Origin: an uncultured Pseudomonadota bacterium
GTDB lineage: Bacteria > Pseudomonadota > Gammaproteobacteria > Ga0077536
DNA length: 51,841 bases
Direction of reading: 5' to 3'
NCBI GenBank assembly: GCA_903825645.1
Contig: CAIKBL010000012.1
Coordinates: 1-51,841, forward strand
The notes under the pieces were generated by a model. That model saw nothing but the letters and a program-made list of their open reading frames with translations, ran no database searches and had not been told where the DNA came from. Position numbers and translations under genes: made by a program. This document shows, in pieces, positions 30,049-46,411 of this stretch. The first letter of the stretch is position 1; each line of letters begins with the position of its first letter.

Positions 30049-31371
30049 ATGTCAAACACCGGGGCCATGGAACCCAGAATGCAAAATTCGATGCTGACGC
30101 ATGACGTGTTGGTGATTGGCGGCGGCCCGGCAGGGTCGACGATCGCGGCCTTACTGGCGAGCCGCGGAAAATCAGTCATCCTCGTGGAGAAGGATACGCA
30201 TCCCCGCTTTCATATCGGGGAATCACTGCTGCCTTTCAATATTCCGCTGCTCGATAGGCTCGGCGTCTTGGCGCAGGTCAAGGCTATCGGGATGCAGAAA
30301 TTCGGCATTGAATTCATCTCACCCCATCACGACAAACCCAGTGTCCTCGAGTTCGGCGCAGGCTGGTATAAGGACATGGATTATGCCTTCCAGGTTCGAC
30401 GCGCCGAGTTTGACGACATCCTGTTACGCAATGCGGCAGCGAAAGGCGCGGAGATCGTCGAAGCGCACCGGATCACCGACGTCGATTTTTCGCAGACGTC
30501 GGCCGTCATCGCGCGCGCGACCGGCGCGGATGGAACACCACGACACTTTTCGGCGCGTTTCGTGGTGGATGCCAGCGGTCGGGATACCTTTTTGGCGGGA
30601 CGACTGCGCGTCAAGGAAAGAAACCGCCGGCATGCAAGCGCGGCGGTGTTCGGTCATTTTGTAAATGCTGAACGACTGGAAGGGCGCGCGGAGGGTCATA
30701 TCAGCATCTTTTGGTTCGACAAGGGATGGTTCTGGTTTATTCCACTCGCGGACGGCACCACGAGCGTCGGAGCGGTCTGTGCACCGGAGACCGTAAAGTC
30801 GCGAGGCGACGACATTTCTGCCTTGTTTGATGCCCTCATAGCGCGTTGCCCGGCGCTCAAAAAGCGCTTGGCGCAGGCGACACGGGTGGGGGCGGCGACC
30901 GGGACGGGAAATTATTCCTATTCCACGACTCGGATGGTGGGCGATCGCTACTTGCTGGTGGGTGACGCAGGCGGTTTTATCGATCCGGTTTTCTCGACGG
31001 GGGTCTACCTGGCGATGCATGGCGCCGAACGTGCGGCGGAGGCGGTGGCGGTGTATCTGGCAACCCCGGCACGCGCGCGCGGGGCATTACGGCAGTTTGA
31101 ACGCGAGACCCGGAGCGAACTGAATCGCTTCTCGTGGTTCATCTATCGCATGACCCGGCCGGCCATCCGGAGCTTATTCATGGCGCCCCGCAATTATTTC
31201 CGGATTGAGGAAGCCGTGCTGGCCCTGCTTTCCGGCGATGTGGGTGTCAATTCACCCATCCGATCGCGCCTGACTTTGTTCAAGGGATTGTTTTATCTGA
31301 AGACCTGCTTCATCTCGGCCAAGACGGTCGGTACGCGTCTCTTTTTGCGCACGGGCCGATTCGGTTCGTGA
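30049..31371 (+). CDS. Flavin-dependent halogenase-type oxidoreductase
   Basis: The protein has 440 residues. GGGPAG (24-29) binds FAD. Trp227-Phe-Trp229-Phe-Ile231-Pro232 is the WxWxIP signature of flavin-dependent halogenases. Phe310, Pro313, Ser316 and Gly318 in GDAGGFIDPVFSTG match the second FDH motif. Lys84 in QKFGIEFI aligns with the catalytic Lys79 of tryptophan halogenases (alignment by eye). The enzyme would chlorinate or brominate an aromatic or polyene using FADH2, halide and O2. It overlaps the glycosyltransferase gene by 4 nt (GTGA) and faces the aryl-polyene operon. Xanthomonadins, aryl polyenes of Xanthomonas, are brominated, so this is the probable tailoring halogenase. The start may be any of several ATGs from 30049 to 30091. 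Confidence 0.85.
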   Translation: MSNTGAMEPRMQNSMLTHDVLVIGGGPAGSTIAALLASRGKSVILVEKDTHPRFHIGESLLPFNIPLLDRLGVLAQVKAIGMQKFGIEFISPHHDKPSVLEFGAGWYKDMDYAFQVRRAEFDDILLRNAAAKGAEIVEAHRITDVDFSQTSAVIARATGADGTPRHFSARFVVDASGRDTFLAGRLRVKERNRRHASAAVFGHFVNAERLEGRAEGHISIFWFDKGWFWFIPLADGTTSVGAVCAPETVKSRGDDISALFDALIARCPALKKRLAQATRVGAATGTGNYSYSTTRMVGDRYLLVGDAGGFIDPVFSTGVYLAMHGAERAAEAVAVYLATPARARGALRQFERETRSELNRFSWFIYRMTRPAIRSLFMAPRNYFRIEEAVLALLSGDVGVNSPIRSRLTLFKGLFYLKTCFISAKTVGTRLFLRTGRFGS

Positions 31372-32177
31372 CGCCCGCACCAGGCCACCCGGCCCGCGTG
31401 GCAGGACCGATCAACGCGTCTGCGCAGACCCATCTGGTGCTCATTCCGAGCTATAACTCGGGCCCCAAACTCATCGAGACGGTGCGTGAAGCGCGGTGCT
31501 ATTGGGCCTCGGTCTGGGTGGTGATCGACGGCAGTACCGATAACAGCATGGTGGACGTTGAGCGTCTCGCGGCGACCGATGCGGGCATACGGCTCTTTGT
31601 GTTGTCGCGCAATCAGGGTAAGGGGGCCGCTATTCTGCACGGGTTGCGCCAAGCCGAAGCGGCCGGTTTTACCTATGTGCTGACGATGGATGGCGACGGA
31701 CAACACCCGGCGGCGCTCATCCCCGAGTTCATGGCAACCTCCATCGCCCATCCCGACGCGCTCATCCTGGGGCGTCCGGTTTTTGATGACAGCGCGCCCT
31801 GGATTCGACGCATGGGCCGAAAGGTCTCCAACGGATGGACACGCGTGGAGACCTTGTGGCGAGCCGACTTTGATTCACTGTTCGGTTTTCGGGTGTACCC
31901 GGTAGTGCGGTTACGCGAGATCCTGGAGAACAGCTGCTGGATGCGAGGCTTCGATTTCGACGCGGAAGCCGCGGTCAGACTGTGCTGGGCGGGCTTCGCG
32001 ACGCTTGATGTCCCCGCCCCCGTCAAATATCTCACGGTGCAGGAGGGCGGTGTCTCTCACTTCCACTATGTCCGGGATAATCTGCTGTTGGCTTGGATGC
32101 ATTTGCGTTTGATGGGCAGTCTCTTGCGGCAGTTGCCCCGCATGATGGCGCGGCAGCTCAAATCATCCCGCCGTTGA
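31368..32177 (+). CDS. Family 2 glycosyltransferase
   Basis: The protein has 269 residues with a GT-A fold: HLVLIPSYNSGPKLIETVRE, then VWVVIDGSTDNS, GKGAAILHGL and YVLTMDGDGQHP, in which D-G-D provides the metal-binding acidic motif. The C-terminal hydrophobic segment (LLAWMHLRLMGSLL) may anchor it to the membrane. The start is GTG inside the halogenase stop (GTGA). Its 3' end overlaps the convergent ketoreductase by 20 bp. In aryl-polyene clusters a GT2 is thought to link the polyene to a sugar or glycolipid. The acceptor here is unknown. Confidence 0.88.
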   Translation: MTPAPGHPARVAGPINASAQTHLVLIPSYNSGPKLIETVREARCYWASVWVVIDGSTDNSMVDVERLAATDAGIRLFVLSRNQGKGAAILHGLRQAEAAGFTYVLTMDGDGQHPAALIPEFMATSIAHPDALILGRPVFDDSAPWIRRMGRKVSNGWTRVETLWRADFDSLFGFRVYPVVRLREILENSCWMRGFDFDAEAAVRLCWAGFATLDVPAPVKYLTVQEGGVSHFHYVRDNLLLAWMHLRLMGSLLRQLPRMMARQLKSSRR

Positions 32178-32877
32178 TCGAAATAATCTGACCTGAAATG
32201 TAGCTCGCCTTCTCGGAGATCAGGAACGCTGCGAGATCACCTACTTCTTCGGGTGTTCCGGTCCGCTTCATCGGGACCAACCGCTCAATCGTCGCCTTGT
32301 CGAACACCGCATCGCTCATCGGGGAGGTGATAATGCCGGGGGCGATCGCATTGACCGTGATGCCCCGACTGGCGAGTTCGAGTGAGAGTGATTTGGTGGC
32401 GCCGTGGAGCCCGCTTTTGGCCGCAGCATAATTCACCTGGCCGCGGTTTCCCGTGATGGCGGCGACGGAAGAAATATTGAGAATTCGTCCCCACCGCGTG
32501 CGGATCATGGGCATGAGTAGCGGCTGCGTGACGTTGAAAAAACCATTGAGGGTGACGTCCATGACACGCTGCCACTGCTGGCGCTGCATGCCGGGCATCA
32601 CGGCATCGTCATGCAAGCCCGCGTTGTTGATCACGATTTGGATGACGCCCTCCGCGAGCAATGCGGTCAGGGCGGTCTCGGTGGCGTCCGCATCGGTGAT
32701 ATCAAAGGCGACGGCCGTGGCGGATTGACCTTGGGCACGTATCGAAGAGGCAATTTCTTCGCTGTGCGCCAGCTGCGAATTAGCATGGACATAGACGTGA
32801 ATGCCGTCTTCGGCCAAGCGTCGGCAAAGGGCACTGCCGAGCGCGCCACTGCCGCCCGTGATCAGGGCTCGTTTCAT
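32158..32877 (-). CDS. 3-ketoacyl-ACP reductase (ApeQ/FabG type)
   Basis: The protein has 239 residues and is a short-chain dehydrogenase. TGGSGALG (7-14) binds NADPH, and NNAG (84-87) is followed by the catalytic Ser136/137, Tyr150 and Lys154 (SSVAA...YAAAK). It ends ISINGGMI. It would reduce the 3-keto group of the ACP-bound aryl polyene after each elongation. It starts in a 4-nt ATGA overlap with the upstream dehydratase and is the last gene of the minus-strand operon. Confidence 0.93.
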   Translation of the reverse strand: MKRALITGGSGALGSALCRRLAEDGIHVYVHANSQLAHSEEIASSIRAQGQSATAVAFDITDADATETALTALLAEGVIQIVINNAGLHDDAVMPGMQRQQWQRVMDVTLNGFFNVTQPLLMPMIRTRWGRILNISSVAAITGNRGQVNYAAAKSGLHGATKSLSLELASRGITVNAIAPGIITSPMSDAVFDKATIERLVPMKRTGTPEEVGDLAAFLISEKASYISGQIISINGGMI

Positions 32878-33308
32878 TTAATTGACGCTCCAAAGAGGAT
32901 GGTGGCACGACCGGAAATGATCGTGCGATTAGCGTGCACAATGGAGAACGCATAGCTGGCGCCGTTGTGCGCGCTGGCCAACAGCGTGGCCGTAATGCCG
33001 AGATCGTCCGACAAATCGTCGAGGCGTGCTACCTGCAGAAGAAGATCTCTGACGCTAGCCAGGTAGCCGATCCGAGGTCCCTCGCTCGGATCGCCCGTGA
33101 TGCTCCCATGGAAGGCCATCGCCTGGGCGGCATATTCGATACCGCACACGGCGTCCAGCCGGCCCGCTCGTGCGAGTGGATTGGATGGGTCACGGTGCGT
33201 GCTGGACAAGCCGTGTATCGTGTGCCGGTCGTAGGACAGAATGGTATCCAGCAGACACATGCGACCTGCATGGGGGATGTGTGTCTGGATGTCTGCACGG
33301 TGAATCAT
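32874..33308 (-). CDS. Hotdog dehydratase, ApeP type
   Basis: The protein has 144 residues. IPHAGRMCLLDTI carries the active-site His region of the ApeP-like 3-hydroxyacyl-ACP dehydratase family, and GIEYAAQAMAFHG the conserved helix. In the known pathway it pairs with an ApeI-type dehydratase, and the pair removes water to form each conjugated double bond. ATGA overlaps couple it to the genes on both sides. The partner dehydratase is at 41240. Confidence 0.85.
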   Translation of the reverse strand: MIHRADIQTHIPHAGRMCLLDTILSYDRHTIHGLSSTHRDPSNPLARAGRLDAVCGIEYAAQAMAFHGSITGDPSEGPRIGYLASVRDLLLQVARLDDLSDDLGITATLLASAHNGASYAFSIVHANRTIISGRATILFGASIK

Positions 33309-34117
33309 CGAACGGTTGTCCCTAGGGGAGTCACGGTAATCCTGAGCAGGCTGTGGGCCATGTAGTCGAGGTCAACAGTCTGCACGCGCGACGCCGTCAA
33401 CGCGCGTAGCAAGGGCAGCGCCCGTGCCGCCGGGTTACTGTGCCGTAAGGCTTCCCAACTCGCTTCCGGCAGCCCGGTTATCGTCTCTCCCCGGCGGGGC
33501 CGCAAGGCGAGCGCGAATGCGGCCAGACTGCGGGGGGTCTCGTGGGGGGTCAGGACAAAGGCGATGCCAAAACTATCCTTAATTGGTCGTGCGGCCTGTA
33601 AGGGGGCCGGGTAGCGCAGATCGTAGAGCGCTAGCAGGACCGGTTGTCCGGTGCTCGCGGCCTGACTGGCAGCTTCCAGCAGGCCCGCCCCGCAGCTCCA
33701 GTCATAGGCGCAGACACTGGTGGAGGCAGCCATCGACTGGGTGCCGATGCTCCAGTAACCGGCCGGCGCGTTATGCACCGAGTTGTGGAAACGCGTCGGC
33801 GAAATCTCGGGGGCGTCGCCCGCCAGGACTTCGAGGATAGCGGTAATGGTCGCCCCATCGCCGCCGGACGAGGCAAAAACCGAGGCCAATGTTTGGGGAT
33901 CGCGCTCAGCGTGCGCGCAGGCTTCACTACAGACTTCAATCGCCAGTTTTACCGCATCGGTTGCCCGGCGCCGTTCGGCGGGCGGCAAGAGGGCCGGCGC
34001 AGTCAATTGAAAATCGGGGACACCGCGCGCGTGCAAGGTTTGCAGCACAGCTTTGCCGGCCGGCCAGTTGGCGATCCCCGGCGCGCGCAGTCCGATGCCT
34101 TCCACGAAGACTTTCAT
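33305..34117 (-). CDS. Chain-length factor-like ketosynthase partner (ApeC type)
   Basis: The protein has 270 residues. It contains FASSGGDGATI, FHNSVHNAPAGYWSIG, and SVCAYDWSCGAGLLEAA in place of a full active site. It corresponds to the N-terminal half of a ketosynthase only, the layout of the beta-ketoacyl synthase chain-length factor family found in aryl-polyene clusters. It should form a heterodimer with the adjacent ketosynthase and help fix polyene length. It overlaps both neighbours by ATGA. Confidence 0.85.
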   Translation of the reverse strand: MKVFVEGIGLRAPGIANWPAGKAVLQTLHARGVPDFQLTAPALLPPAERRRATDAVKLAIEVCSEACAHAERDPQTLASVFASSGGDGATITAILEVLAGDAPEISPTRFHNSVHNAPAGYWSIGTQSMAASTSVCAYDWSCGAGLLEAASQAASTGQPVLLALYDLRYPAPLQAARPIKDSFGIAFVLTPHETPRSLAAFALALRPRRGETITGLPEASWEALRHSNPAARALPLLRALTASRVQTVDLDYMAHSLLRITVTPLGTTVR

Positions 34118-35307
34118 CCGGTGCGGCCCAGAATGAGGCTGCAGTTGCTGCCCCCAAACCCGAACGAATTCGTCATCACATGCGTCAGCGGCAGATCTTG
34201 CCCCGCCTGCAGGTAGCGGCTGCGTAGTTCGGGGTCGAGATTTTGCGTGGTCGGACTCGCCGGAATGAATGCGTGGCGGAGTGCCAACATCGACAGGATG
34301 ACTTCCAGCACCCCCGAGGCACCCAGCGTGTGGCCGGTGAGGCCTTTGGTGGAGGTACAGGGCGTGTCTCGACCGAACAGCGTCGACACGGCATGGTCTT
34401 CTGCGAGATCGCCCGCTTTCGTGGCCGTGCCATGGATGTTGATGTAATCAATCGCCTGGGGCCCCAAGCCTGCCGAGGACAAGGCAGCCTGCATCGCCTG
34501 CCGTGCGCCCAATCCGTCCGGGTGCGGACTCGACATGTGGTAGGCGTCACTGCTTTCGCCCACGCCGAGCAAACGGATGTTCGCGCCGCGGGCGTTGGGC
34601 TCATCCCGCTCCACCAGGACAAAGCCGGCGGCTTCCCCGATGGAGATCCCATCGCGCGCGACGTCAAAGGGTCGGCAGGGTCTGGTTGATGTTAACTGCA
34701 GCGCGTTGAATCCGTATAACGTCGTCAGGCAGAGGCTGTCTGCACCGCCGACGATGGCCGCGTCGCATAAGTCCAGCGCAATCATCCGGGCCGCGACGCC
34801 AAAGACTTTGGCGGTGGAGGCGCAGGCGGCCGAGACGACTAACGCCGGACCCGTCAGCGCAAACGTCTGCTGCAGGAAGTCCGCTATCGAATAGGTGTTG
34901 TGCTGCTCGCGATATCGAAATTCAGGGGGCAACGCACCGCTGTCGGGGTCGCGTCGGCGAAAAGCCTGTTCTGACTCTAAGATCCCCGCGGTACTGGTGC
35001 CGGCAAATACCCCGATACGGTGCGCGCCATACTGCCCGCGGGCGCGGATCACCGCATCGACGAAGCCGTCCCGCTCGAGGGCGCGTTGGGCAAGACGGTG
35101 ATTGCGGCAATCGTAGGGGGCGCGCACGCCGAGGATGGGCGCCGTTTCGAGTCCGGTCACGCGACCGATGTGGGTCTCCAGCGCGGCGCCTTCGAAATCA
35201 CAGGGCCGTAAACCGCTTTCCCCACGGCGCAGTTGACGCAGCGTCTCTGCCTGGCCAGCGCCGAGACAGGAGACCACGCCGACGTGGGTGAGCAGGAGTG
35301 GGCGCAT
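34114..35307 (-). CDS. 3-ketoacyl-ACP synthase (ApeO/FabF type)
   Basis: The protein has about 397 residues and the complete catalytic triad: Cys163 in SAACAST, His293 in INIHGTATKAGD, and His327 in TKGLTGHTLGASG. SFGFGGSNCSLIL closes the fold. It condenses malonyl-ACP with the growing aryl-polyenyl chain. It is the only full-length ketosynthase in the cluster; E. coli-type clusters have at least two. ATG 35307 sits inside TGATG with the preceding lipoprotein stop. Confidence 0.92.
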   Translation of the reverse strand: MRPLLLTHVGVVSCLGAGQAETLRQLRRGESGLRPCDFEGAALETHIGRVTGLETAPILGVRAPYDCRNHRLAQRALERDGFVDAVIRARGQYGAHRIGVFAGTSTAGILESEQAFRRRDPDSGALPPEFRYREQHNTYSIADFLQQTFALTGPALVVSAACASTAKVFGVAARMIALDLCDAAIVGGADSLCLTTLYGFNALQLTSTRPCRPFDVARDGISIGEAAGFVLVERDEPNARGANIRLLGVGESSDAYHMSSPHPDGLGARQAMQAALSSAGLGPQAIDYINIHGTATKAGDLAEDHAVSTLFGRDTPCTSTKGLTGHTLGASGVLEVILSMLALRHAFIPASPTTQNLDPELRSRYLQAGQDLPLTHVMTNSFGFGGSNCSLILGRTG

Positions 35308-36677
35308 CAACTGCTCGCGCCGTCGCCGAGTTGGGCGAGCGCAAGGCGAGTCACGCGGCGCTGCGTTTCGACATAGCGGTAATACCGCGCATAGAACGTC
35401 CGGAATGCGGGACCTTCTGTTGGCGGAATATCCGGGTGATGGACCAGATAGGATTCTACGGGTTGGCGCGACTCCAGGATTTTGGTGTAGAGGGCGTCGA
35501 AATACTGGAGGTTATCCTGCAGTCGCGCGTAGCGGGGCTGGCGCAAGATTTCCTCGAACCGGCGCTGATAGGGTCCGAGCCACGGTTGGTCATAGAAGAT
35601 GATCTCCGAGTGGGTATTGTACAGCGCGTTGACTGCGAGGAGAGGCCCGAGATCGATGATTGACCCGGGTGTCGTGGGCAGCTGATCAAAGGTCATCAGT
35701 TGGGTGCGGGCGCTGAGATCTTGGTAAATCGTGGCCGGATCGCTGATGTCGAAATCATTGGTCCGCCGCACCAGGTTCACGAACTCATTCTTGGGGACCG
35801 GGAAATTAAAGATCGAAATCCAGAGTGGCCTGTCCATCGGCCATTCCGCCCAGACCTTGGCGGCACTCAGCGCATTGTGGTTAATGTGCGCGCAGTTGTG
35901 CGTGAAGATGTTCCAGTCAAAAACTTTCTGCGCGGTTCGATAGGGTTCGTTGATCCGGTTGAGAAAACTGACGACTTCGAGCATTTGCGCGCGACTCATC
36001 GGTACCCGCGCGCAATAGCGATTTCGACCAAAGGCGATCGCATAGTCAGTAGCGATGGAGATCTCATAGCGAAACTCGTCGCGGGTGAAGCCACCTGGCA
36101 TGTCCCGCAAGAATTCGGGATGGAACTCGATGCCATCGTAAATGCCGCGCCGGACGGCTTCGCGCTGGACTGCCCGATACTGTTCACGGGTCAGCGCTTC
36201 GTCCGCGCGAAGATCGCCCGAGAAGAAAAATCCCCGCCCCTCGACGGCGACCCAGGCGGCATTGCGGTAATGGGCGTTAACCGTGATGCCGACCCCGTCC
36301 GCGTCTCGCGTGCGGGGAGCGGCGTCGCACATTTGGAGCACGGGATAAGCCTGGGCGGGCGTTCGGCATACGCCGTTCAAGTACAGGACATCATGACCGC
36401 CGACACCGCTGTAAATCTCCGCCCCAAAGCCGGATTTCTTGCCGAGTTGCGTGAGGGCACAGGTCTCCGCATAGTAAGGAAAAAACTGCTGATAGACCGC
36501 TTCCTCGCGTGCGGTGGGCGTCGCGGGCTCGATGACGGAGCGCGTGAGGGCGCAGCCGCCCACATTCAGCAGCAGCATGAGCAACGCCATGCGCCAAGCC
36601 CCGGCGTTCTCCCGCCTTGCTGGCCACGCGCCATGCAATACGCCGCACGGGCTAGGCACGGGTGGTGTTCTCTTCAT
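35307..36677 (-). CDS. Large lipoprotein with a Cys-His motif, unknown function
   Basis: The protein has about 456 residues if it starts at ATG 36677, which overlaps the hydrolase by 26 nt; ATG 36590 is a second choice. The signal MALLMLLLNVGGCALT has a lipobox (LNVGGC), so the protein should be lipid-anchored on the outer membrane or periplasm. The central HNCAHINHNALSAAKVW carries Cys-x-His, and RYCARVPMS another Cys. This recalls the NC-motif of DUF4105/NlpC-P60-like cysteine hydrolases, but I cannot confirm it. Coli-type aryl-polyene clusters have a smaller DUF3261 lipoprotein in this place. It may help attach or transfer the pigment at the outer membrane. Confidence 0.7.
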   Translation of the reverse strand: MKRTPPVPSPCGVLHGAWPARRENAGAWRMALLMLLLNVGGCALTRSVIEPATPTAREEAVYQQFFPYYAETCALTQLGKKSGFGAEIYSGVGGHDVLYLNGVCRTPAQAYPVLQMCDAAPRTRDADGVGITVNAHYRNAAWVAVEGRGFFFSGDLRADEALTREQYRAVQREAVRRGIYDGIEFHPEFLRDMPGGFTRDEFRYEISIATDYAIAFGRNRYCARVPMSRAQMLEVVSFLNRINEPYRTAQKVFDWNIFTHNCAHINHNALSAAKVWAEWPMDRPLWISIFNFPVPKNEFVNLVRRTNDFDISDPATIYQDLSARTQLMTFDQLPTTPGSIIDLGPLLAVNALYNTHSEIIFYDQPWLGPYQRRFEEILRQPRYARLQDNLQYFDALYTKILESRQPVESYLVHHPDIPPTEGPAFRTFYARYYRYVETQRRVTRLALAQLGDGASS

Positions 36678-37344
36678 TGCGCGCGGGGAGCGGACAAACC
36701 GCGAGAAGCTGTGACCACAGGCGCTCCCACGTGGGCCAATCGTGTCCCCCCGGCGCTTTGATGCATTGGTCTGGCGGCAGTCGCGCGGCGAGCAGCCCAT
36801 GGGCGCGGGCAAACCGGTCCGTCTCGCCATAGCCTAGATAGATTGTGGGAGACGCGGGCGGGTCCGCGGGGCGATCACCCAGCCAGGCCAGCACCGACGC
36901 TTGCGGGTTGCACGTCTCGGCGCTGGCGGGGCGCCAGGCGCTGAGCCCACCGGCACGTTGGATGTCGGCGATCAAGCCAGCGGAGCCTAGAAACGGCGCG
37001 ATCAGGATGACGCCTTCGACGATCTCGGGATAGGCTTGGGCGTAACGCAACGCGCCGAATCCGCCGGCCGAAATCCCGGCAAGCCACACGCGCTGTGTCG
37101 GGGCGGTGATTGTCGGGCGCATGATTTCGCTATGCAAATTAACCGCCAAGGTGTCGTCCAGATAACAGGCCATCCCGGTCTCGACGGCGATGATGTCAAT
37201 CGGTGCCCCGGTGCGATGCACGTCATCGAGAAACCCATGTGTCTCGAAGTCACCTGCCCTCATGCCTGCGCCGGGCAGCAGCACCAGCAGTGGCGTATCC
37301 AGCCCGGTGCCCGCGCGCGATCTACAGGCCACTTCCATCTTCAA
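36652..37344 (-). CDS. Alpha/beta hydrolase
   Basis: The protein has 230 residues. The nucleophile elbow is GISAGGFGALRYA (Ser), the acid is likely Asp in YGETDRF, and the His is in PGGHDWPTW. It has no signal peptide, so it is cytoplasmic, and is short with a small lid. It overlaps the MMPL stop by ATGA and runs into the lipoprotein gene. No hotdog thioesterase of the ApeK kind is found in the cluster, so this hydrolase could release or edit acyl-ACP intermediates. That role is inferred. Confidence 0.82.
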   Translation of the reverse strand: MKMEVACRSRAGTGLDTPLLVLLPGAGMRAGDFETHGFLDDVHRTGAPIDIIAVETGMACYLDDTLAVNLHSEIMRPTITAPTQRVWLAGISAGGFGALRYAQAYPEIVEGVILIAPFLGSAGLIADIQRAGGLSAWRPASAETCNPQASVLAWLGDRPADPPASPTIYLGYGETDRFARAHGLLAARLPPDQCIKAPGGHDWPTWERLWSQLLAVCPLPARNEENTTRA

Positions 37345-39710
37345 TCTCCTCCACCGGGAAGCTCAGGTGCAGCGCCCTGCGCTGCGGGAGTGAGAATCAT
37401 GGCGGCGATAAGACTCAAGGCGGTCCCCAGCGCCACGGTCTCGCCCAGATCGCGCAGTACCGGGATGCGAGAAAACGACAGGGCGCCAAACCCGATGACC
37501 GTACACGCATTCGCGATCAGCAGCGAGGCCAGCGTGGTCGAGTGTTTAGCGCCGGCCATCGCCGCGTTCTGAAAGAACAAGCAATAGTTGGAGCCGACGG
37601 CAATGATCAGCAAGAGACCGAACAGGTGAAATATCGACAGGCGCCCGTGCGGCCAGACCAGGATCGCTACCGTGAGTACGGTGGCCACGAGCAGCGGCGC
37701 GAGGATCTGGGCGACGCGCTTTGGCGAGCGAAAAAAAATCAGCAACAAACCGGTAATCACGATCAGGCCGTAGCCATTCAGCGCGAGGGCCTCATGACGG
37801 TAATGCGAGAGCAGCGCGTCAGACTCGGCCTTCAAGTCCAAGAACACGACCGCGACCCCTTGTTGTGCGGCAAATGTCTTGACGGCCGCGGCGATACTCA
37901 CGGCATCGCGCACACCCCTGAGCGGCAGCACCGCCAGGGTTTTGTCGGGCTGTCCGAGTAATAGCGCCCCGACTTTCAGGGCAATCGCGGTGCCCTCGAG
38001 CGACTGCCGCGAAAGAGCCGGGGCCTCTCGCGCCGCGGCCACATCACGCAGAAAGGGCGTAAAGGTCTCGGCCTTGAAGGGGAGCCCAACCAGCGCGGTG
38101 TGGAGGGCCGGGCTGAGCACCTCGGCGGCGGGTAGCGCAGCGCGACGAAGCGCTTGGCTCGCGCGACTCGGCAGATAGCGATCCGGCGCGTCAAAACCTT
38201 GCAACCGACCCTGCGTGATTAACGTCTGCAGGCGTACCGATACGCGTCCCGATAAGTCGAGTGCGTCATCCTCAGTGGCGCCTGTCGCCATGACGAGGTA
38301 ACGGGCATCAGGTGCCCCCATGTCGTCACGCAATTGTCGATCGATCGCCTGATCGGCGGCCGATAGCGGACTCAGGCTCATCAATTCTGGCTGCCAGAGA
38401 TGTCCGGCTTGTAGGCCAACGCACAAAAGTCCCGTGCAGGTGGCCGCGATCAACACTGCCCGGGGCCAGCGGCCGTCGGTCAGCCATGCGGGCGCTTTGA
38501 TGTCCAGCACGCGGGCACGGTGCCCGGTGGTACTGGTGAACATGAGTGTCGGCAGGACAAAGCGGGTGACGCCCAGCGCGAGACCGATACCAACCACGGT
38601 AAACAACCCGAGCTGCGCGAAGCCAGGAAATCCGGAACACATCATGGTTGAAAAACCGCAGACCGACACCAGTGCGCCGCGCCGCAGGGTCGGCCAGATC
38701 CGATGCAGTGTCGCCCCCGGCTGCACATCGGCGCTACTTTGCACAAACAGATAAATGGCATAGTCGATCGATTCGCCGATGAGGGTAATCCCGAAGCCCA
38801 CCGTGATCCCATGCACCGCGCCAAACACGAGGGTCACGGCCGCCAAACCGCCGAGCGTCGCGGTCAGCACGGGAGCGAGGGTCAGCAGGAGGATGCGCGG
38901 CGAGCGATAAACCCACAGCAGGAGGCCGAGGATGAGGGCCAACGCCACGCCAGAGTAATGGCTGACATCATGCTTCATCTCATCCCGCGTCCTAACCGCA
39001 AAACTACCCGGACCGCTCACCAGCAGGCGGGCGTCGTTGGTTGGGCGTTGCGCCATGCGGGGCTCCTGAAACGCGGCGTGGATCGCCGCCAGCGCCTTTT
39101 CCTGGGCGTCGATGTCAAAGCCCGGAGCACGGGTCTGCAGGAGCAGTAGCGCGCGTGTCCCGTCTGCCGAGCACCACACGCCGTCGCATAACCGACGCGC
39201 CTTGCCCTCGAACAGAGCAGTGACGAGGTGTCTCGCTTCGCCGGTAGGATCGTGCGCGATCGCCTCCTTCATCAAGGGCTCCATGTCCGAGCGGAGAACG
39301 TCGAGATCTTGCGTCAAGGCGGCATGCAGCCCTTTTTCCGAAAATTGCGCGGTCGACACGGTCGGACTGAGCAGGTAGCGGTTACGCCAGACATACGCCT
39401 GGTCCAGCCGGTTAATCGGGACCGCGCCGTTGTCGACGCGCGTAAAGGCGTCCACTCGACCGAGGCGCTCGGCGAGTGTACGACTGAGCTGCGCGCGCGT
39501 AGGGGCGTCGCTGCCGGCGATCCCCACCATCAGCAGTCGTGAGGCGACGCCATCGCGCAATTGGTCGACGAGGATCTGCTGTTCAGGTTTGGGTGAGCGG
39601 GGCAAAAAAACGGACATGTCGGTCGTGAAAGGCGCCTGTATCACCGCGCTCCCCAGGACGCCCAGCAGGAGGATCCAGGCGACGAGGATATAACGGGCCT
39701 GCGCGTTCAT
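37341..39710 (-). CDS. MMPL/RND-type exporter (ApeM-like)
   Basis: The protein has 789 residues with about twelve membrane helices in two similar halves, each with a large periplasmic domain. The first half ends with MKHDVSHYSGVALALILGLLL and the second is similar near ALNGYGLIVITGLLL. FITLIGESIDYAIYLF contains the MMPL signature region. This is an inner-membrane transporter of lipids or polyketides driven by the proton gradient. In aryl-polyene clusters it is thought to move the lipid-bound pigment across the inner membrane. It overlaps its neighbours by ATGA. Confidence 0.92.
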   Translation of the reverse strand: MNAQARYILVAWILLLGVLGSAVIQAPFTTDMSVFLPRSPKPEQQILVDQLRDGVASRLLMVGIAGSDAPTRAQLSRTLAERLGRVDAFTRVDNGAVPINRLDQAYVWRNRYLLSPTVSTAQFSEKGLHAALTQDLDVLRSDMEPLMKEAIAHDPTGEARHLVTALFEGKARRLCDGVWCSADGTRALLLLQTRAPGFDIDAQEKALAAIHAAFQEPRMAQRPTNDARLLVSGPGSFAVRTRDEMKHDVSHYSGVALALILGLLLWVYRSPRILLLTLAPVLTATLGGLAAVTLVFGAVHGITVGFGITLIGESIDYAIYLFVQSSADVQPGATLHRIWPTLRRGALVSVCGFSTMMCSGFPGFAQLGLFTVVGIGLALGVTRFVLPTLMFTSTTGHRARVLDIKAPAWLTDGRWPRAVLIAATCTGLLCVGLQAGHLWQPELMSLSPLSAADQAIDRQLRDDMGAPDARYLVMATGATEDDALDLSGRVSVRLQTLITQGRLQGFDAPDRYLPSRASQALRRAALPAAEVLSPALHTALVGLPFKAETFTPFLRDVAAAREAPALSRQSLEGTAIALKVGALLLGQPDKTLAVLPLRGVRDAVSIAAAVKTFAAQQGVAVVFLDLKAESDALLSHYRHEALALNGYGLIVITGLLLIFFRSPKRVAQILAPLLVATVLTVAILVWPHGRLSIFHLFGLLLIIAVGSNYCLFFQNAAMAGAKHSTTLASLLIANACTVIGFGALSFSRIPVLRDLGETVALGTALSLIAAMILTPAAQGAAPELPGGGD

Positions 39711-40282
39711 GGGCCGTCCGGGGTGATCAACATCACAGACTGATCGCCATCAGTTTCCTGGATCCCCACTGTAGTGATTTGCGTCTCGCGGCCGGAGAGG
39801 ACAAGGGTACTAATGCGTGCGGCGACAGTCGGCTCGCGGGGGCGCAGGGTGAGTTGCCAGTTCGCCTGAGCGCCGGAGAAATCAATCGAATAATACTGCC
39901 CTAGTGTCGCGAGATCGCCGCTGAGCGTCGAGCGGATCCCCTCCACGAGGGACGCGATTTCCGGATGTCCCATCAGACTCAGGGTGTAGGGCTCTCCATG
40001 GCGTTCGGTACCGGTTACGATCTCGCCATTCAGGGAGAAGGTTTCGCGCGTGGGGGTCAACGTGATTTTTTCAAGCCGATCGGGCGCTTCATAGCGCAAG
40101 GTCCCCGTGCTCTGCAGTTGTCCCATCAAGAACTTCAATTGCTTGCGCTCCACAAACGTCGCAGAGGACGACTTGATCTGGTGCAGTGCGGCCATGAGAG
40201 TTTTTAGATCCCAGTCCTGCGTGCTTGCGACCGGGGAGAATGATATCGCCGTCATGCACAGCAGACGGGAGAGCAGACTCAT
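39707..40282 (-). CDS. LolA-like outer-membrane lipoprotein carrier
   Basis: The protein has about 191 residues. ATG 40282 begins a signal peptide (MSLLSRLLCMTAISFSPVAS). The mature part has the LolA pattern: LHQIKSSSATFVERKQL, GTLRYEAPDRLEKITL and ETFSLNGEIV, folding into the half-barrel that carries lipids through the periplasm. Aryl-polyene clusters contain such a carrier (ApeL-like). It should deliver the lipid-anchored product from the MMPL exporter towards the outer membrane. It lies 34 bp behind the acyltransferase gene. Confidence 0.88.
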   Translation of the reverse strand: MSLLSRLLCMTAISFSPVASTQDWDLKTLMAALHQIKSSSATFVERKQLKFLMGQLQSTGTLRYEAPDRLEKITLTPTRETFSLNGEIVTGTERHGEPYTLSLMGHPEIASLVEGIRSTLSGDLATLGQYYSIDFSGAQANWQLTLRPREPTVAARISTLVLSGRETQITTVGIQETDGDQSVMLITPDGP

Positions 40283-40316
40283 CGACAGGGCACGGGCTTT
40301 GATGTGTCTCAACACG

Positions 40317-41216
40317 TCAGCGCCAGAGATCAAAAAAATTGAACCAGTTGTAGGGTGCGAGACGGGCATAATGCTCCAGTCGCTCGACATAGCGGCGCAC
40401 GATGTCTTCGAGCGCTGCGGCGCTCATGCGACCGAGATCGGCCGTGCGAGCGTCCATAAACGGCTCAAAATGCACGTCATAGCGATTGCCACCTTGATAT
40501 AAGCCAATCATCAAGACCACCGGGACTCTCAAGATCCCCATGATCCGAAACGGGTTGACGGAAAAAGAGGCAGGGACGCCCAAAAACGGATGCGCTATTT
40601 TACGCTCAGCGGTGAGGCTGCGGTCCGCCAGAATACCGACGAATTCGCCCGCCGCCAGACTACTTTGGACTTGCAGAAACGAATCCGGTTTGCCGAGATT
40701 GATTGTATCGCCGACAAGATCGGGCGCAATGGCATTGAGCACGGAGGTCACCTTGCGAGCATTTTCTTCGAACATCAGCATGCGGACCCGCAACGCGGGC
40801 TTGTTTCGCCCGATCACGCGCAGCACCTCGAAACTGCCCATATGGGCGCCCACCAGAATACAACCGGTCCCCTTCGTGAGGATGTCATTTACGAGGGACT
40901 CCCCGAAGATTCGGATGTCGAACGCGTCCTTCTGGTTGCGTAGCAAAAAAACACGATCGAGTACGCAGGATGCAAAGCAATGGTAATGGCGAAAAAGATC
41001 GCGCATACGGGCCGTCCGGCCAAGCGCCCGGCTCAAGTATTGCCGGGAGGCAGCACTCGCGCGCGAACTGAAAAGCATGAAATAAAGACAAATCGGAGGC
41101 AGGAAAAATCGACTTGGGCGTCGTCCAATCAGCAGGGCAAGTCGTGTGAACAGACCGAGGAGAAAAGCATTCCCGCGCTCCTGTCGACGCAACCACTCTG
41201 GTGGCTGGCTGGGCAT
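40317..41216 (-). CDS. LpxL-type acyltransferase
   Basis: The protein has 299 residues. An N-terminal hydrophobic segment (FLLGLFTRLALLIG) is followed by the catalytic H-x4-E motif, His125 and Glu130 in LVGAHMGSFEVLRV, as in lipid A lauroyl/myristoyl acyltransferases. GILADRSL and FSVNPFRIMGILRVPVV continue the family pattern. Here it probably transfers the aryl-polyenoyl chain from ACP to a lipid or sugar. ATG 41216 is 23 bp after the preceding dehydratase; longer frames upstream overlap that gene and have no support. Confidence 0.88.
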   Translation of the reverse strand: MPSQPPEWLRRQERGNAFLLGLFTRLALLIGRRPSRFFLPPICLYFMLFSSRASAASRQYLSRALGRTARMRDLFRHYHCFASCVLDRVFLLRNQKDAFDIRIFGESLVNDILTKGTGCILVGAHMGSFEVLRVIGRNKPALRVRMLMFEENARKVTSVLNAIAPDLVGDTINLGKPDSFLQVQSSLAAGEFVGILADRSLTAERKIAHPFLGVPASFSVNPFRIMGILRVPVVLMIGLYQGGNRYDVHFEPFMDARTADLGRMSAAALEDIVRRYVERLEHYARLAPYNWFNFFDLWR

Positions 41217-41239
41217 GTCGCGCTCGCGGGACGCTGAAC

Positions 41240-41566
41240 TCACGGGCGGCTTCGGAGCGTGCCGGCGACCGCGGGGGTGGGGGTGCCGTGCAGATAGAGT
41301 TCGAATTTGAATTGGTCGAGAGCCTGCGCGCACCAGCGAATCGTGACACTGTGATCGGGACGGACGGGTTGCATGAATTTTACTTGGATGACCTCGAGGG
41401 GATAGCTCAGGGGCTCCGACTGCCGGATGGCAGACAAGATCTCCTCCAGCAATACCGCACCGGGGATGAGCGGGTAGTCGGGGAAATGGCCCGGCTGAGT
41501 GGGATGATCGCCGGCAAATCGCGTAATACATTCAACCCAGGGCGTGGTGCTGTCGGAGGCGCCCAT
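41240..41566 (-). CDS. Hotdog dehydratase, ApeI/FabZ type
   Basis: The protein has 108 residues. DHPTQPGHFPDYPLIPGAVLLEEI carries the catalytic His in GHFP and the acidic residue in LLEEI of FabA/FabZ-like dehydratases. It should dimerise with the ApeP-type subunit encoded at 32874. ATG 41566 starts one base after the ligase stop. The usual length of ~110-150 residues is met at the low end. Confidence 0.85.
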   Translation of the reverse strand: MGASDSTTPWVECITRFAGDHPTQPGHFPDYPLIPGAVLLEEILSAIRQSEPLSYPLEVIQVKFMQPVRPDHSVTIRWCAQALDQFKFELYLHGTPTPAVAGTLRSRP

Positions 41567-41567
41567 C

Positions 41568-42875
41568 CTACAAGGCCCTGAGCGCGTCAAGCGGGAGCTT
41601 CCCGAGCATATTACGCGGTAGCGCCTCCACAAAATCAATCGAACGGGGCAGGAATGCCGCGTCGACGCGCTGTCTTAAGGCCGCGTTGATGTGCGCCGCA
41701 TCGAGGCTGGGCGCGACCACGTAGGCCTTGAGTCGTGGCGTTGGGCCCCGCTCCTGCAGGACGAACACGCCATCCTCGACACCGGGAATGGCGTTCAGCT
41801 GACTGTTCAGGTAGGCGAGTGAACTTCGTTTTCCGGCGATATTGATCATGTCGGCTTTGCGCCCCTTCAAGAGGAAGGTGCGATCCGCAGTCAACTCAAT
41901 CACGTCGCCGAGCGGCGATGGGGCGGCAGCGATAGTGCCGGAGGCCCAGATTTCGTCTGCCCTTGCGTCGAGTTCGATGCCGTCCAGACAGGTCCATCTG
42001 TCCGTGTGGACGGTGCGTCGGACCGCGATTTGACCGACCTCGGTGCAGCCGTAAATCTCCCACAGCGGGGCCTGCAGTTTTTGCTCCGCGGCAAGCGCCA
42101 GATCCGTCGCCAGCGGCGCAGTGGCGCAAATGATCTGATCCAGGGGCGGGGCTTTGATGCGCACATCCATGAGACTGCGCAAATGAATGGGGGTCGTCAC
42201 GAGGAGACGGGGCCGCGCCATGGTCGCGAGCTGCGCCACAATATCGGCCGGAAATAGTGGCCGGGTAGCTTCCAGCGTAAAGCCATGCTGCAGGCTCAGC
42301 ATGATGAGCGATTCCAGTCCGAAGCTGTGCTGATGAGGGACCGTGCCGGTGAGCGAGGCCCCCGCCAGCGCACTGAGATCTAGTTTCTGGGCGGCGGCCT
42401 GGGTGCTCCCCACTAGGGCACCCCAGGTCCGCAGATGAGGGAGCGCCTCACCCGTGGAGCCGGACGTAAAAAGGACCACGGCCGCTTGCGTCGCCCTGAA
42501 GGCCGGTATCCTGGGGGCGGCCCGGCGGTCGGCGGTCGGCGGAAACGGAAACAGCGGGATGCCTGATAAGGCGACCGGCTCATCCGTTAGCGCATACAGG
42601 GCCGGATCGGCATCGGCGAGATCCTTAATCGGCTTTTCAGCCAGCGACGCAGGCAAGAGCGTAATCTGGTGACGCATCATCGCCGCGATCAAGCCGACCG
42701 AAAACCGATATCGATTGGCGCACAGATTAACCACCTGGGTAGCCACCGGCAGACCTTCGGCGAGACTCACGACCTCGGAGAGAAAGCGTGCCACCGTGAT
42801 CAGCTCACCGTGATCCCGGAAAATTACCGAGTCGGCGTTGACGTGACGCAGGGCGGGAAGGACAGGATCGTGCAT
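41568..42875 (-). CDS. Acyl-ACP synthetase / AMP-dependent ligase (ApeH-like)
   Basis: The protein has about 435 residues. It has the adenylation motifs FTSGSTG (with AVVL before it), YGCTEVGQIAV and KGRKADMINIAGKRSS, and the C-terminal catalytic Lys in LGKLPLDAL. It is shorter than full CoA ligases, as aryl-polyene ligases are. It would activate an aryl carboxylic acid such as 4-hydroxybenzoate with ATP and load it on the ACP. No gene for making that acid is in the window. ATG 42875 is preferred to TTG 42881. Confidence 0.9.
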   Translation of the reverse strand: MHDPVLPALRHVNADSVIFRDHGELITVARFLSEVVSLAEGLPVATQVVNLCANRYRFSVGLIAAMMRHQITLLPASLAEKPIKDLADADPALYALTDEPVALSGIPLFPFPPTADRRAAPRIPAFRATQAAVVLFTSGSTGEALPHLRTWGALVGSTQAAAQKLDLSALAGASLTGTVPHQHSFGLESLIMLSLQHGFTLEATRPLFPADIVAQLATMARPRLLVTTPIHLRSLMDVRIKAPPLDQIICATAPLATDLALAAEQKLQAPLWEIYGCTEVGQIAVRRTVHTDRWTCLDGIELDARADEIWASGTIAAAPSPLGDVIELTADRTFLLKGRKADMINIAGKRSSLAYLNSQLNAIPGVEDGVFVLQERGPTPRLKAYVVAPSLDAAHINAALRQRVDAAFLPRSIDFVEALPRNMLGKLPLDALRAL

Positions 42876-42901
42876 GGGCAACCTTGAATTCGTACCCTAT
42901 T

Positions 42902-43600
42902 TTAGCGAGACGCTTTCGCCCTGATAAGGTCAGCGAGCCGCAGGATGTCGTGAAAATTTTCTTTGGGTGCGGCAGCAACCCACCAAGCACGTGTCATCCG
43001 TTCTACGCCTAACATTAACAGTACCAGGGGTATATTCAGCAGGTTTACAAACGCCGACCACCAGCCGAGGGGCGCGCAAAGCAGGAGCGTGCCCGACACC
43101 AAAATCTGCAGGAAAAAGAAAAGACACCAGGCTGCAGTGATCCGCCGGGTATAGCGTGCCAGATCGGGCGAGGGCATGCCGTGGATCGCCCGGGCAAAAT
43201 AGGTCACGACGGGCTCGCCGCCGGGGCGCAATGAACGGCCGAAAACAAGCAGCAAGCCCAGATAAACGAGGGTGTGCGGGATCCCCGTGGACAAGATGAG
43301 TCCGCTCTCGGCATCGCACGCCCCCAGCAATGCGCCCACGGTCACGAGTCCGGCGATCAGATATCCCCGAGGAGACTTGAACCGGCTGCACACCACTATC
43401 CCGGCCAAGCTTAGCTGCGCCCAGATCAAGAGGGTGACTTCAGGCCCTTGGGACGCACGGCGCAGTAGACTATGGGCTGCCAGAGGCAAGGCCAGCATGA
43501 CGGGGATCAAGGTGAGGCGCCGTGCCTGCTGCCACAACGATCGGGCCACGGTGTTAGCGGGCGTCGGGGCAGCAGGCGGACTGGTGGATTCGACGCGCAT
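42902..43600 (-). CDS. COG4648-type membrane protein (ApeG-like)
   Basis: The protein has 232 residues from ATG 43600 (43651 is possible). It has five to six hydrophobic helices: LIPVMLALPLAAHSLL, LIAGLVTVGALLGA, TLVYLGLLLVFGRSL, WCLFFFLQILVSGTLLL and LLNIPLVLLMLGVERM. Short conserved loops include ARAIHGMPS and YTRRITAAW. This is the COG4648 inner-membrane family regularly found in aryl-polyene clusters, with unknown biochemical role. It lies between the ACP gene and the ligase gene. Confidence 0.85.
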   Translation of the reverse strand: MRVESTSPPAAPTPANTVARSLWQQARRLTLIPVMLALPLAAHSLLRRASQGPEVTLLIWAQLSLAGIVVCSRFKSPRGYLIAGLVTVGALLGACDAESGLILSTGIPHTLVYLGLLLVFGRSLRPGGEPVVTYFARAIHGMPSPDLARYTRRITAAWCLFFFLQILVSGTLLLCAPLGWWSAFVNLLNIPLVLLMLGVERMTRAWWVAAAPKENFHDILRLADLIRAKASR

Positions 43601-43692
43601 GGAACTCACGACTCTGCGGTAAGGATCGGTCGGTACCCGAAAGACGGACACAGGGTCTGCCGTGCCACCTGAGCGCTGGGCGCTCAGCGCTG

Positions 43693-43950
43693 CTAGCGCG
43701 GTCGCTTTTCTTCAATATACGAAGCCAGCGCGCGAAGGGAGCTGAAGATTACCACGTTGTTCTCATCGTCCGAGCGCAGTTTGACGCCGTGGTGCTGGGA
43801 GATGGCCAGCGCCACCTCGAGAATATCAATGGAATCGAGTCCAAAGCCTTCTTTGTAAAGTGGGGTATCGCCAGTCGCGAGCGCGATGTCGAAGTCCAGG
43901 TTAAGGGTCTCGATAATCAGCCGCGCGAGATCGTTTTCCGCCGGGGACAT
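43693..43950 (-). CDS. Acyl carrier protein
   Basis: The protein has 85 residues. Ser40 in GFGLDSIDILEVAL is the phosphopantetheine attachment site. The helix-rich ends and acidic composition are typical. It is the first gene of the minus-strand operon and the only ACP seen; the E. coli-type pathway uses two (ApeE and ApeF). It carries the aryl starter and the growing polyene as thioesters. A phosphopantetheinyl transferase must be supplied from elsewhere. Confidence 0.93.
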   Translation of the reverse strand: MSPAENDLARLIIETLNLDFDIALATGDTPLYKEGFGLDSIDILEVALAISQHHGVKLRSDDENNVVIFSSLRALASYIEEKRPR

Positions 43951-44266
43951 GGTGATGAGCTGATCTGCAAGTGATTCGTAGGTCCATTATATTCAGGCTA
44001 GTCGTCCATTGGAATGGCGACCGGCGTTTGTGCCCTGCGCGACAAGGGGGGGGTGTCGTCACCGGCACGAAGCGTACGCGCAGATGTCTTCGCCTTCAAA
44101 TGTCGGTGTTTGGCTGGTCCCTGCGAGATCGTCTGCGCGCTTATTCCCCCCCTGGGAGTGGATAAGCCACGCGCCCAGAAAAAATTTCGTCGAAGTCGCG
44201 TGGGAAAACGACATAATTCGCCCGCAGCTCATTCGCGACTGCAGTGTTTTAGGGGAATTGGTCTGT
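43951..44266. promoter_or_regulatory. Divergent control region of the aryl-polyene operon and methyltransferase
   Basis: The 316-bp region separates the minus-strand operon start from the plus-strand methyltransferase. It is the likely site of back-to-back promoters. No clear -35/-10 or operator was identified. Confidence 0.4.
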
Positions 44267-45313
44267 ATGCGTCTCAGAACTGTTGCCGAAAGCTGGCTTG
44301 AACGTCTGGTCCTGAAACTGAATCAGGTCCCCGAGCCCCTCATCGAAACCCAGATGGCGTTCAATATGGCCCGGACCATCATGACGGGCGTCAAGCTAGG
44401 CGTTTTCGAAGCGATGGCAGAAGGGCCGGCCCCGGCCCTTCAGGTCGCTTCGCTGTGTCAGTGCGATGCAGCGGCCATGGAAAAATTACTTAATACGCTG
44501 GTTGCGTGTAACTATCTGCGGTGGCGGCGCGACGGCTACGTGCTGACTCCAAAATCCCGGAAATGGCTCCTTCGGCGCTCGCCGCATAATCTGTGCGACA
44601 AAATGCTTTTCCAGTTTTATGAATGGGACATAGTCAGCGGGTATGAGGAATACGTCCGTACCGGCAAGTCGGTGACATCGCACGCTTCCGTGGTGGAAGA
44701 CGACTATTGGTCTACGTACCAACGAGGCATGTACAGTCTTGCCCGACTCTGGGCTAAGGATGTGGCCGCGCGGTGCCCGGTACCCGCAGGCGCGCGTGAT
44801 CTGCTGGATATCGGTGGCTCACATGGCTACTACTCGGTCTGTCTGTGTCAGCGCTACCCCCGTCTCAACGGCGTTATCCTGGATTTGCCGAATGCCGTAA
44901 AATATGCGGCACCGTTGCTTGCTGCGGAAGGCATGGGCAATCGAATTACTCATCGAGCGGAGGACGTCCTTACAGCGACGCTTCAGCCACAATCCGTCGA
45001 CGTGGTCTTCATGTCCCAGCTAGTCCACCATTTCACCGATGAGCAGAACCGTCAGTTGCTGATCAACATCACGCAGGCCCTGCGACCGCAGGGGGTATGC
45101 GTGGTCTTGGACTACTTCGGTCCGGGGCCCGCAGGCAAGGGCGACCAAGCGGCGGCGCTCCTGGATCTCTATTTTGCGACGCTGAGCGCGTCGGGGATTT
45201 GGTCGGCGGACACGCTACAGGATTGGTTCCGAGCAACCGGGCTGATGATCTCAGCGCCGATCCGTTTTCGGAACATGCCCGGCGGGGCGCTGGTGGTCGG
45301 CGTGAAAGGTTGA
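44267..45313 (+). CDS. O-methyltransferase (ApeB-like)
   Basis: The protein has 348 residues. An N-terminal winged-helix dimerisation region (FNMARTIMTGVKLGVFEAMAEG) precedes a SAM domain with LLDIGGSHGYYSVCL, VILDLPNAV and SVDVVFMSQLVHHFTDEQN. It belongs to the small-molecule O-methyltransferase group. ATG 44267 has AGGGGA in front. It probably methylates the phenolic hydroxyl of the aryl head group, as the methoxy group of xanthomonadin suggests. It is divergent from the ACP gene. Confidence 0.88.
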   Translation: MRLRTVAESWLERLVLKLNQVPEPLIETQMAFNMARTIMTGVKLGVFEAMAEGPAPALQVASLCQCDAAAMEKLLNTLVACNYLRWRRDGYVLTPKSRKWLLRRSPHNLCDKMLFQFYEWDIVSGYEEYVRTGKSVTSHASVVEDDYWSTYQRGMYSLARLWAKDVAARCPVPAGARDLLDIGGSHGYYSVCLCQRYPRLNGVILDLPNAVKYAAPLLAAEGMGNRITHRAEDVLTATLQPQSVDVVFMSQLVHHFTDEQNRQLLINITQALRPQGVCVVLDYFGPGPAGKGDQAAALLDLYFATLSASGIWSADTLQDWFRATGLMISAPIRFRNMPGGALVVGVKG

Positions 45314-45931: not shown

Positions 45932-46411
45932 CAGGCGGCGTCCGTGTCCGCTGGTGTTCGAGTATGCCTCTAGGAGCACGCACTGGCAACAAGTAAGCGC
46001 TGCCTATGTCGGCGTGTCGGGTCGGACGGAGTCGTCTAATCAAGTCAATTGACACGCACATCCCATACGACGTCACGCGACCAATGGCCGGGGAAGGCGG
46101 TTTCGTTTAGGACGTTATGGAAACATGAGCGCGAGTTTGCGCTTTTTTTTTTAGAATTTTGCCGAAGATTTAAAGGTGATCCCGCAAACGCGTGGGCTTA
46201 TGAAAAGGGCGTGCGCGATGAAATTTTACACGATCAATCATTTGGCCATGGTCACGTGACATGTTCCGTGAATCATTCTGTGGATCTTTCCCTCAGCCGC
46301 CTTAATTCAAAGTTTTAAAATGGAGTTCTCATTAGCGAGGAAACGAACACAAGCGCCGAGTCTATCGTCGGCATCAGGCTCATTTTCCCGGGAACCGAGG
46401 CACTCAGGCAT
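45932..46411. other. Intergenic stretch with an isolated terminator
   Basis: The stem-loop at 46128-46152 lies in it. A 13-codon frame (MKFYTINHLAMVT) occurs near 46210. No gene was recognised. Confidence 0.35.
46128..46152 (+). terminator. Isolated intrinsic terminator
   Basis: AGCGC-GAGTTT-GCGCT is followed by a run of nine to ten T on the plus strand. No plus-strand gene ends just before it, so it may end a small RNA or be a relic. Confidence 0.5.

Follow-up and report, generated by a model that had tools for sequence, protein, structure and literature searches.

What product is specified by the block of genes at positions 30049-45313 of contig CAIKBL010000012.1, from an uncultured gammaproteobacterium? 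Within that interval, the open reading frames (ORFs) of this 51,841-base contig (the whole of which is called the window here) form a 16-gene aryl-polyene (APE) cluster; the host genome (G000) is a 4.1 Mb draft of 90 contigs that is 99.5% complete. The cluster contains the core set of an APE pathway, which is a ketosynthase (KS) with a chain-length factor (CLF), an acyl carrier protein (ACP), a ketoacyl reductase (KR), dehydratases (DH1 and DH2), and an aryl ligase. It also contains the envelope module, which consists of a LolA-like protein, an MMPL exporter, an acyltransferase (LpxL type), a glycosyltransferase (GT2), and a COG4648 protein. Judging from these genes and their order, it is likely (probability about 0.85) that the interval is a complete APE cluster of the Azoarcus arc type, and the pigment would very probably be yellow and membrane-bound. 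An initial annotation had assigned the aryl-polyene class, and profiles, gene order, and KS relatives agree on this. The 14 parts that it named are all present on open frames where it placed them; its total of fifteen genes becomes 16, since an alpha/beta hydrolase (ABH, 36652-37344) and a lipoprotein (LPP, 35307-36590) had been overlooked.

The class assignment is carried by the relatives of the KS. A KS alignment was scanned against named genomes, and the best 80 loci of a longer listing, several of them cut by contig ends, were kept; relatives of the window genes near these KS genes were scored at E<=1e-4. An APE locus was defined as KS plus CLF plus at least one of LolA, MMPL, and LpxL, a definition that misses clusters with a diverged or out-of-reach CLF, such as those of Pectobacterium (L119) and Stenotrophomonas (L118), where several other APE-type genes are present. 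By this definition 45 of the best 80 are APE loci, and these, six halogenase neighbourhoods described below, and the window make up the 52 APE loci used throughout.

The KS and KR resemble enzymes of fatty acid synthesis, as would be expected if the locus were a fatty-acid or dialkylresorcinol cluster instead. The initial annotation had proposed to decide this by the company that the relatives keep. For the KS alone, APE loci make up 32/35 of the named loci at >=50% identity, 10/12 at 45-50%, 3/9 at 38-45%, and 0/24 below. Two of the three non-APE loci at >=50% (L081 and L116) lie on short or cut contigs. The third, L091, has a KS that is 54% identical and none of the other cluster genes was found in its 21 kb; this is a real exception, and it goes against a simple equation of KS with APE. 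In the KS tree the window groups with G013, L067, L089, and L068 (support 0.79-0.99). Furthermore, a half-size CLF, LolA, MMPL, and an aryl ligase are present together, as in APE clusters, and no dialkylresorcinol genes were recognised among the cluster ORFs, although no search was aimed at them. A fatty-acid or resorcinol cluster, extremely improbable in our view, is rejected on the KS relatives and the gene content. Chance assembly is no sensible explanation either, because loci fetched by the KS alone have an ACP relative nearby in 41/80 cases and an MMPL relative in 49/80.

The genes of the APE cluster are listed below with their family matches; where a line ends in a count, it is the number of the best 80 named loci with a relative. 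HAL and GT2 lie on the plus strand, the run from KR to ACP on the minus strand, and the methyltransferase (OMT) again on the plus strand.

30049..31371, plus: HAL, flavin-dependent halogenase-like, ArcA type; Pfam Trp_halogenase 1.6e-36, FAD_binding_3 also above cut-off; 28
31368..32177, plus: GT2, family-2 glycosyltransferase, ArcE / Lysobacter ORF15 type; Pfam GT2 1.6e-18; 68% identical in G013; 4-nt overlap with HAL; 47
32158..32877, minus: KR, 3-ketoacyl-ACP reductase (FabG type), ArcH type; NCBIfam PRK05653, 354 bits, above cut-off; 55
32874..33308, minus: DH2, dehydratase 2, ArcI type; without Pfam or NCBIfam match; 41
33305..34117, minus: CLF, half-size chain-length factor, ArcJ / Lysobacter ORF16 type; Pfam Ketoacyl-synt_2 5.9e-25; 51
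34114..35310, minus: KS, ketosynthase, ArcK type; NCBIfam PRK09185, 512 bits against a cut-off of 407
35307..36590, minus: LPP, lipoprotein; no family above cut-off, weak Lnb_N similarity, lipobox-like GGC by reading; 3
36652..37344, minus: ABH, alpha/beta hydrolase, position of ArcO; Pfam Esterase 1.5e-6 and Hydrolase_4 1.3e-6, barely above cut-off; 12
37341..39710, minus: MMPL/RND exporter, ArcP type; Pfam MMPL 6.1e-22; 49
39707..40390, minus: LolA-like carrier, ArcQ type; Pfam LolA_3 1e-19; 42
40317..41531, minus: LpxL-type acyltransferase, ArcR type; Pfam Lip_A_acyltrans 9.2e-10; true start probably ~41240; 48
41240..41638, minus: DH1, FabZ-like dehydratase 1, ArcS type; NCBIfam FabZ 5e-4, weak and below cut-off; 36
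41568..42881, minus: aryl-acid AMP ligase, ArcT type; Pfam AMP-binding 3.8e-15, TIGR02372 1.7e-32 (below cut-off); 35
42902..43651, minus: COG4648-type membrane protein, position of ArcU; without Pfam or NCBIfam match; 36% identical in the E. coli ape cluster; 24
43693..43950, minus: ACP, acyl carrier protein, ArcV type; NCBIfam PRK09184, 109 bits against a cut-off of 70; PP-binding; S40 conserved; 41
44264..45313, plus: OMT, Methyltransf_2-type methyltransferase, divergent from ACP; Pfam Methyltransf_2 2.3e-17, Dimerisation 2e-9; 2, both weak (24-27% identity)

Curated cut-offs of Pfam and NCBIfam profiles are passed by 12/16 of these proteins. Nothing in either collection lies above cut-off for the two dehydratases and the COG4648 protein, which are identified by homology to proteins of other APE clusters; the name COG4648 is taken from the initial annotation and PMC8253772. 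The catalytic residues S137, Y150, and K154 of the KR are conserved in its alignment, as are C163, H293, and H327 of the KS across 64 aligned rows. Neighbouring genes overlap by 4 nt at 7/15 junctions, as in coupled operons, and the GC content is 61.2% in the cluster and 58.2% and 56.8% in its flanks. The start codons of LpxL, DH1, the ligase, the lipoprotein, and OMT are uncertain.

The arrangement had been described initially as unlike that of the E. coli cluster. The order does differ, but it is not unusual. A common order runs ACP-COG4648-ligase-DH1-LpxL-LolA-MMPL-...-KS-CLF-DH2-KR and ends with inverted GT2 and halogenase genes; it is seen in Azoarcus L1K30, Azonexus hydrophilus, Azospirillum ramasamyi, and metagenome-assembled genomes (MAGs) of Zoogloeaceae, Polaromonas, and Acidithiobacillus. 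Since the published arc (arcuflavin) genes of Azoarcus BH72 have this order as well (ACP, ArcU, ligase, DH, acyltransferase, LolA, exporter, arcK, arcJ, DH, KR, GT, and halogenase), the arrangement is not new. According to PMC3949708, the arc genes are split between two loci, and plasmid insertion into either arcK (KS) or arcT (ligase), termed polar by the authors, leaves the cells colourless. Unlike Azoarcus, the window is without arcB (XanB2) and has an ApeB-like methyltransferase; the tightly packed window genes leave no room for arcC, arcD, arcF, arcG, and arcL types, at which no search was aimed.

The whole cluster is matched in G013, a genome from the same family but a different genus, which has 16/16 genes in identical order and orientation at 38-77% identity. 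On the Azospirillum ramasamyi plasmid NZ_CP029832.1 (L175), 13/16 window genes occur in order and the halogenase is 60% identical; a polysaccharide deacetylase and a class I methyltransferase occupy the position of ABH and LPP, and neither class I methyltransferase there resembles OMT. A contig labelled as a Rhodospirillales MAG (L067) preserves the order for 15/16 window genes, and its KS is 68% identical; either transfer or a mislabelled MAG could account for its placement.

In the E. coli ape cluster, 11/16 window genes are matched at E<=1e-3, including COG4648 and the ApeB-like methyltransferase (26%); HAL, LPP, ABH, LolA, and DH2 are unmatched, the order differs, and the KS is 39.5% identical. 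Xanthomonas and Lysobacter clusters, by their description, share with the window the KS and half-size CLF, a LolA-type carrier, exporters, and a GT, with a halogenase in Xanthomonas (PMC3691225). The same source reports that deletion of either Lysobacter ORF16 (half-size CLF type) or the KS abolishes pigment, and it notes halogenase genes near the KS/half-CLF pair in several genomes. The Lysobacter, Luteimonas, and Pseudoxanthomonas loci differ from the window in order, have a KS that is 46-48% identical, and have weak or absent halogenase matches. Two further candidates were set aside: a Variovorax match, whose annotation lists no further gene of the cluster, and a CFT073 stretch that does not contain the ape cluster.

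Is the pigment halogenated? The halogenase-like enzyme named initially is borne out by Pfam Trp_halogenase, by its motifs, and by matches to halogenases in the PDB (3e1t, 3e-66; 8zop, 3.3e-59; 5buk, 5.8e-53; PltA 5dbj, 3.9e-44). HAL contains GGGPAGS at 24, K84, WFWFIP at 227, and DPVFSTG at 312; the key residues of these motifs are kept in >=95% of 24 aligned rows, and K84 aligns with a Lys of 3e1t. We take a GxGxxG motif, a catalytic Lys, WxWxIP, and an FxPxxSxG-type motif to be the marks of flavin-dependent halogenases. A halogenase-like gene within the cluster, as in xanthomonadin clusters, is thus present. Relatives at E<=1e-70 were found in 34/369 genomes of the class, window included. 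The neighbourhoods taken from 10 of those 34 genomes contain a GT2 relative in 9/10 (all but G318) and further APE genes in 9/10 (all but G170), and 6/10 fall under the APE definition. A close halogenase is present in 20/52 APE loci, 6 of the 52 having been picked for having one. Together, these counts indicate that an in-cluster halogenase is common. On balance, HAL probably halogenates the pigment.

Which starter unit is used bears on whether the product could be a true xanthomonadin, that is, a brominated 3-methoxyphenyl polyene built from 3-hydroxybenzoate (3-HBA). The initial annotation had drawn this comparison, and the halogenase and methyltransferase would fit xanthomonadin I. However, the comparison fails on its defining gene, XanB2. 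A XanB2-type chorismatase was found neither in the cluster nor in any of five genomes searched (G000, G001, G004, G005, and G013). In a control on loci rather than whole genomes, the XanB2 query matched 22/91 loci, itself included and the window not, and it picked up XanB2 genes as diverged as 34-35% identity. Among the APE loci, XanB2 is present in 18/52, 12 of the 20 with a close halogenase and 6 without, the co-occurrence being a point for a xanthomonadin. On balance, we regard a true xanthomonadin as unlikely. A XanB2-type gene also lies near the halogenase in L089 (labelled Acidithiobacillus) and L069 (Azonexus), as arcB lies beside arcA in Azoarcus.

Other routes to an aromatic starter were searched as well. 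Aromatic ammonia-lyase (PF00221) was not found in the 90-contig draft G000; G013 has one such lyase on another contig, which at a guess is a histidine ammonia-lyase. The chorismate lyases UbiC (PF04345) and Rv2949c type (PF01947) were found in 0/5 genomes searched, and the control genomes were matched. In contrast, UbiA, the prenyltransferase that uses 4-hydroxybenzoate (4-HBA), lies above cut-off in 7/7 genomes searched. Given the presence of UbiA and the failure to find XanB2, UbiC, or the Rv2949c type, 4-HBA from ubiquinone synthesis, made by an enzyme outside those searched, probably serves as the starter rather than 3-HBA. Use of 4-HBA by the ligase has been proposed for E. coli (PMC8253772). 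With this starter, a 4-oxygenated head would be predicted, unlike that of xanthomonadin.

Several points weigh against the interpretation given so far. The source of the starter is deduced from absence, and the starter could also come from a diverged enzyme or from uptake. Azoarcus ArcT accepts 3-HBA, and the Azoarcus pigment incorporates a 3-HBA analogue and not a 4-HBA analogue (PMC3949708). The KS, sought at E<=1e-60, occurs in 1/6 genomes of the genus, the window's only, and in 3/36 of the family, the third of which (G033) is 46% identical and belongs to a different clade; this distribution could have arisen through transfer into these genomes or through repeated losses. Finally, Azoarcus BH72 carries arcA, yet PMC3949708 describes its pigment, arcuflavin, as a nonbrominated aryl-heptaene. 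An in-cluster halogenase is therefore no proof of halogenation, and a halogenated methoxy-aryl polyene, which had been put forward as the expected product, is too strong a statement; such a product is plausible and not established. The same APE cluster could instead have a flavoenzyme that is a hydroxylase or is silent, and the pigment would then be a methylated aryl polyene without halogen, like that of Azoarcus. Consistent with this, HAL has 74 NCBIfam matches, and none of the best 25 reaches its cut-off. The conserved halogenase motifs and the halogenases among the best PDB matches speak against it, as does Steroidobacter cummioxidans 35Y. This strain, likened to the window by description, has a 14-gene xanthomonadin cluster outside the Xanthomonadaceae and makes a dibromo pigment (C27H28Br2O3 in the text, O2 in a table), although the passages of PMC5979037 tie no halogenase to it. 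A non-halogenating enzyme is thus possible but somewhat doubtful, and we retain halogenation by HAL as the preferred reading.

The second tailoring gene had been called an O-methyltransferase. OMT is indeed a Methyltransf_2-type protein with a dimerisation domain, and many structurally characterised methyltransferases of small molecules are similar to it; O-methylation itself was inferred, and the nearest APE methyltransferase found is ApeB-like. The similarity to the ApeB-like protein of the E. coli type is 26% over 156 aa (4e-14; tblastn 9e-12), with homology over the S-adenosylmethionine domain, and sequence comparison gave no likeness to ArcM. Because the E. coli APE product is ring-C-methylated, a methoxy group is not secured; OMT is a distant ApeB relative, and the head group may be either O- or C-methylated. 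In PMC8253772, ApeB is presumed to be the enzyme that methylates the head group of APEs. At E<=1e-40, OMT occurs in 2/369 class genomes (window and G013), and the lipoprotein occurs in the same two, counted among 274 class genomes. Across the 52 APE loci, an ArcM-type methyltransferase is present in 12, OMT in 2, and both in 0. No OMT was detected on L067, a syntenic contig that ends 1.1 kb past the ACP and has another reading frame there, so OMT looks like an accessory gene. By reading, a flavoprotein-like frame lies upstream of the L067 ACP.

The lipoprotein gene separates ABH from KS, a slot that arcN- and arcM-type genes occupy in other clusters, such as that of Azoarcus L1K30; Azoarcus BH72 also has arcL, a gene for a peptidoglycan-binding protein, adjoining its KS gene (PMC3949708). 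Across the 52 APE loci, LPP is present in 5, a polysaccharide deacetylase (arcN type) in 28, both in 0, and neither in 19. The interval from MMPL to KS contains the deacetylase in 26/28 loci and LPP in 4/5 (not in L099). This apparent mutual exclusion is only suggestive, because few loci were sampled and related ones share genes by descent. Four LPP sequences have GGH and N-C-x-H in common, and H66, N232, C233, and H235 are invariant in 4/4. The Lnb_N profile, which represents a permuted papain-like fold, gave 18.8 and 20.1 bits on LPP against a cut-off of 22.2, with a match of any kind in 1/4 members, and an hhalign comparison was weak (probability 19.9%, E 0.0011). An AlphaFold2 model made from the 4 sequences only had a pLDDT of 42, and a sequence search of the PDB returned a single match (E 0.72). 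A papain-like role of LPP is a lead only.

From the observed gene content, order, catalytic motifs, and distribution, we infer every chemical step of the following pathway. The ligase would load hydroxybenzoate onto the ACP. The KS and half-size CLF, the KR, and the two dehydratases would then extend it with malonyl units, giving a polyene acid conjugated throughout. As probable tailoring steps, the halogenase-like flavoenzyme adds halogen to the ring or the chain, and the methyltransferase adds a methyl group to the ring head group. The acyltransferase and glycosyltransferase would place the polyene on a lipid, which the MMPL exporter, LolA, and the lipoprotein would carry and fix in the outer membrane, where it may serve as an antioxidant. 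A more specific combination can be imagined, in which 4-HBA is supplied by a novel chorismate-converting enzyme, the head is 3-halo-4-methoxyphenyl, and LPP is an Lnb/papain-like cysteine-dependent transferase or hydrolase that acts on the outer-membrane polyene lipid and replaces ArcN. Such a head would mirror the 3-methoxy-4-bromo head of xanthomonadin. Taken together, this combination is unlikely as a whole.

Outside the APE cluster, a DUF4410 protein (45329-45979) and an SfnB-like oxidoreductase (46412-47587, below the NCBIfam cut-off) follow. By reading, short proteins at 413-1045 and 22749-23414 carry a terminal VPEP...GLAGLG...RR tail that resembles PEP-CTERM sorting signals, a 1046-aa TPR-like protein (13170-16310) lies near these PEP-CTERM-like proteins, and a transposase-like ORF of integrase type (50219-51688) lies near the contig end.

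The cluster is an ordinary member of a known branch of the APE family and a modestly new variant of it. Unusual for an APE cluster are OMT, LPP in the arcN slot, and the failure to find a XanB2-type chorismatase in cluster or genome, with ammonia-lyase, UbiC, and Rv2949c-type lyase searches of the genome also negative. No published description of the methyltransferase-lipoprotein combination in an APE cluster was found in literature covered mostly as titles and abstracts, excluding supplements and most subscription journals. The cluster places one methyltransferase, one halogenase, and one lipoprotein that is a candidate for anchoring within ~15 kb, so that each is separable by single-gene removal. 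In the family more broadly (G000, G001, G004, G005, and G013), the known chorismate lyases were not found beside UbiA, which points to a further source of 4-hydroxybenzoate in these bacteria.

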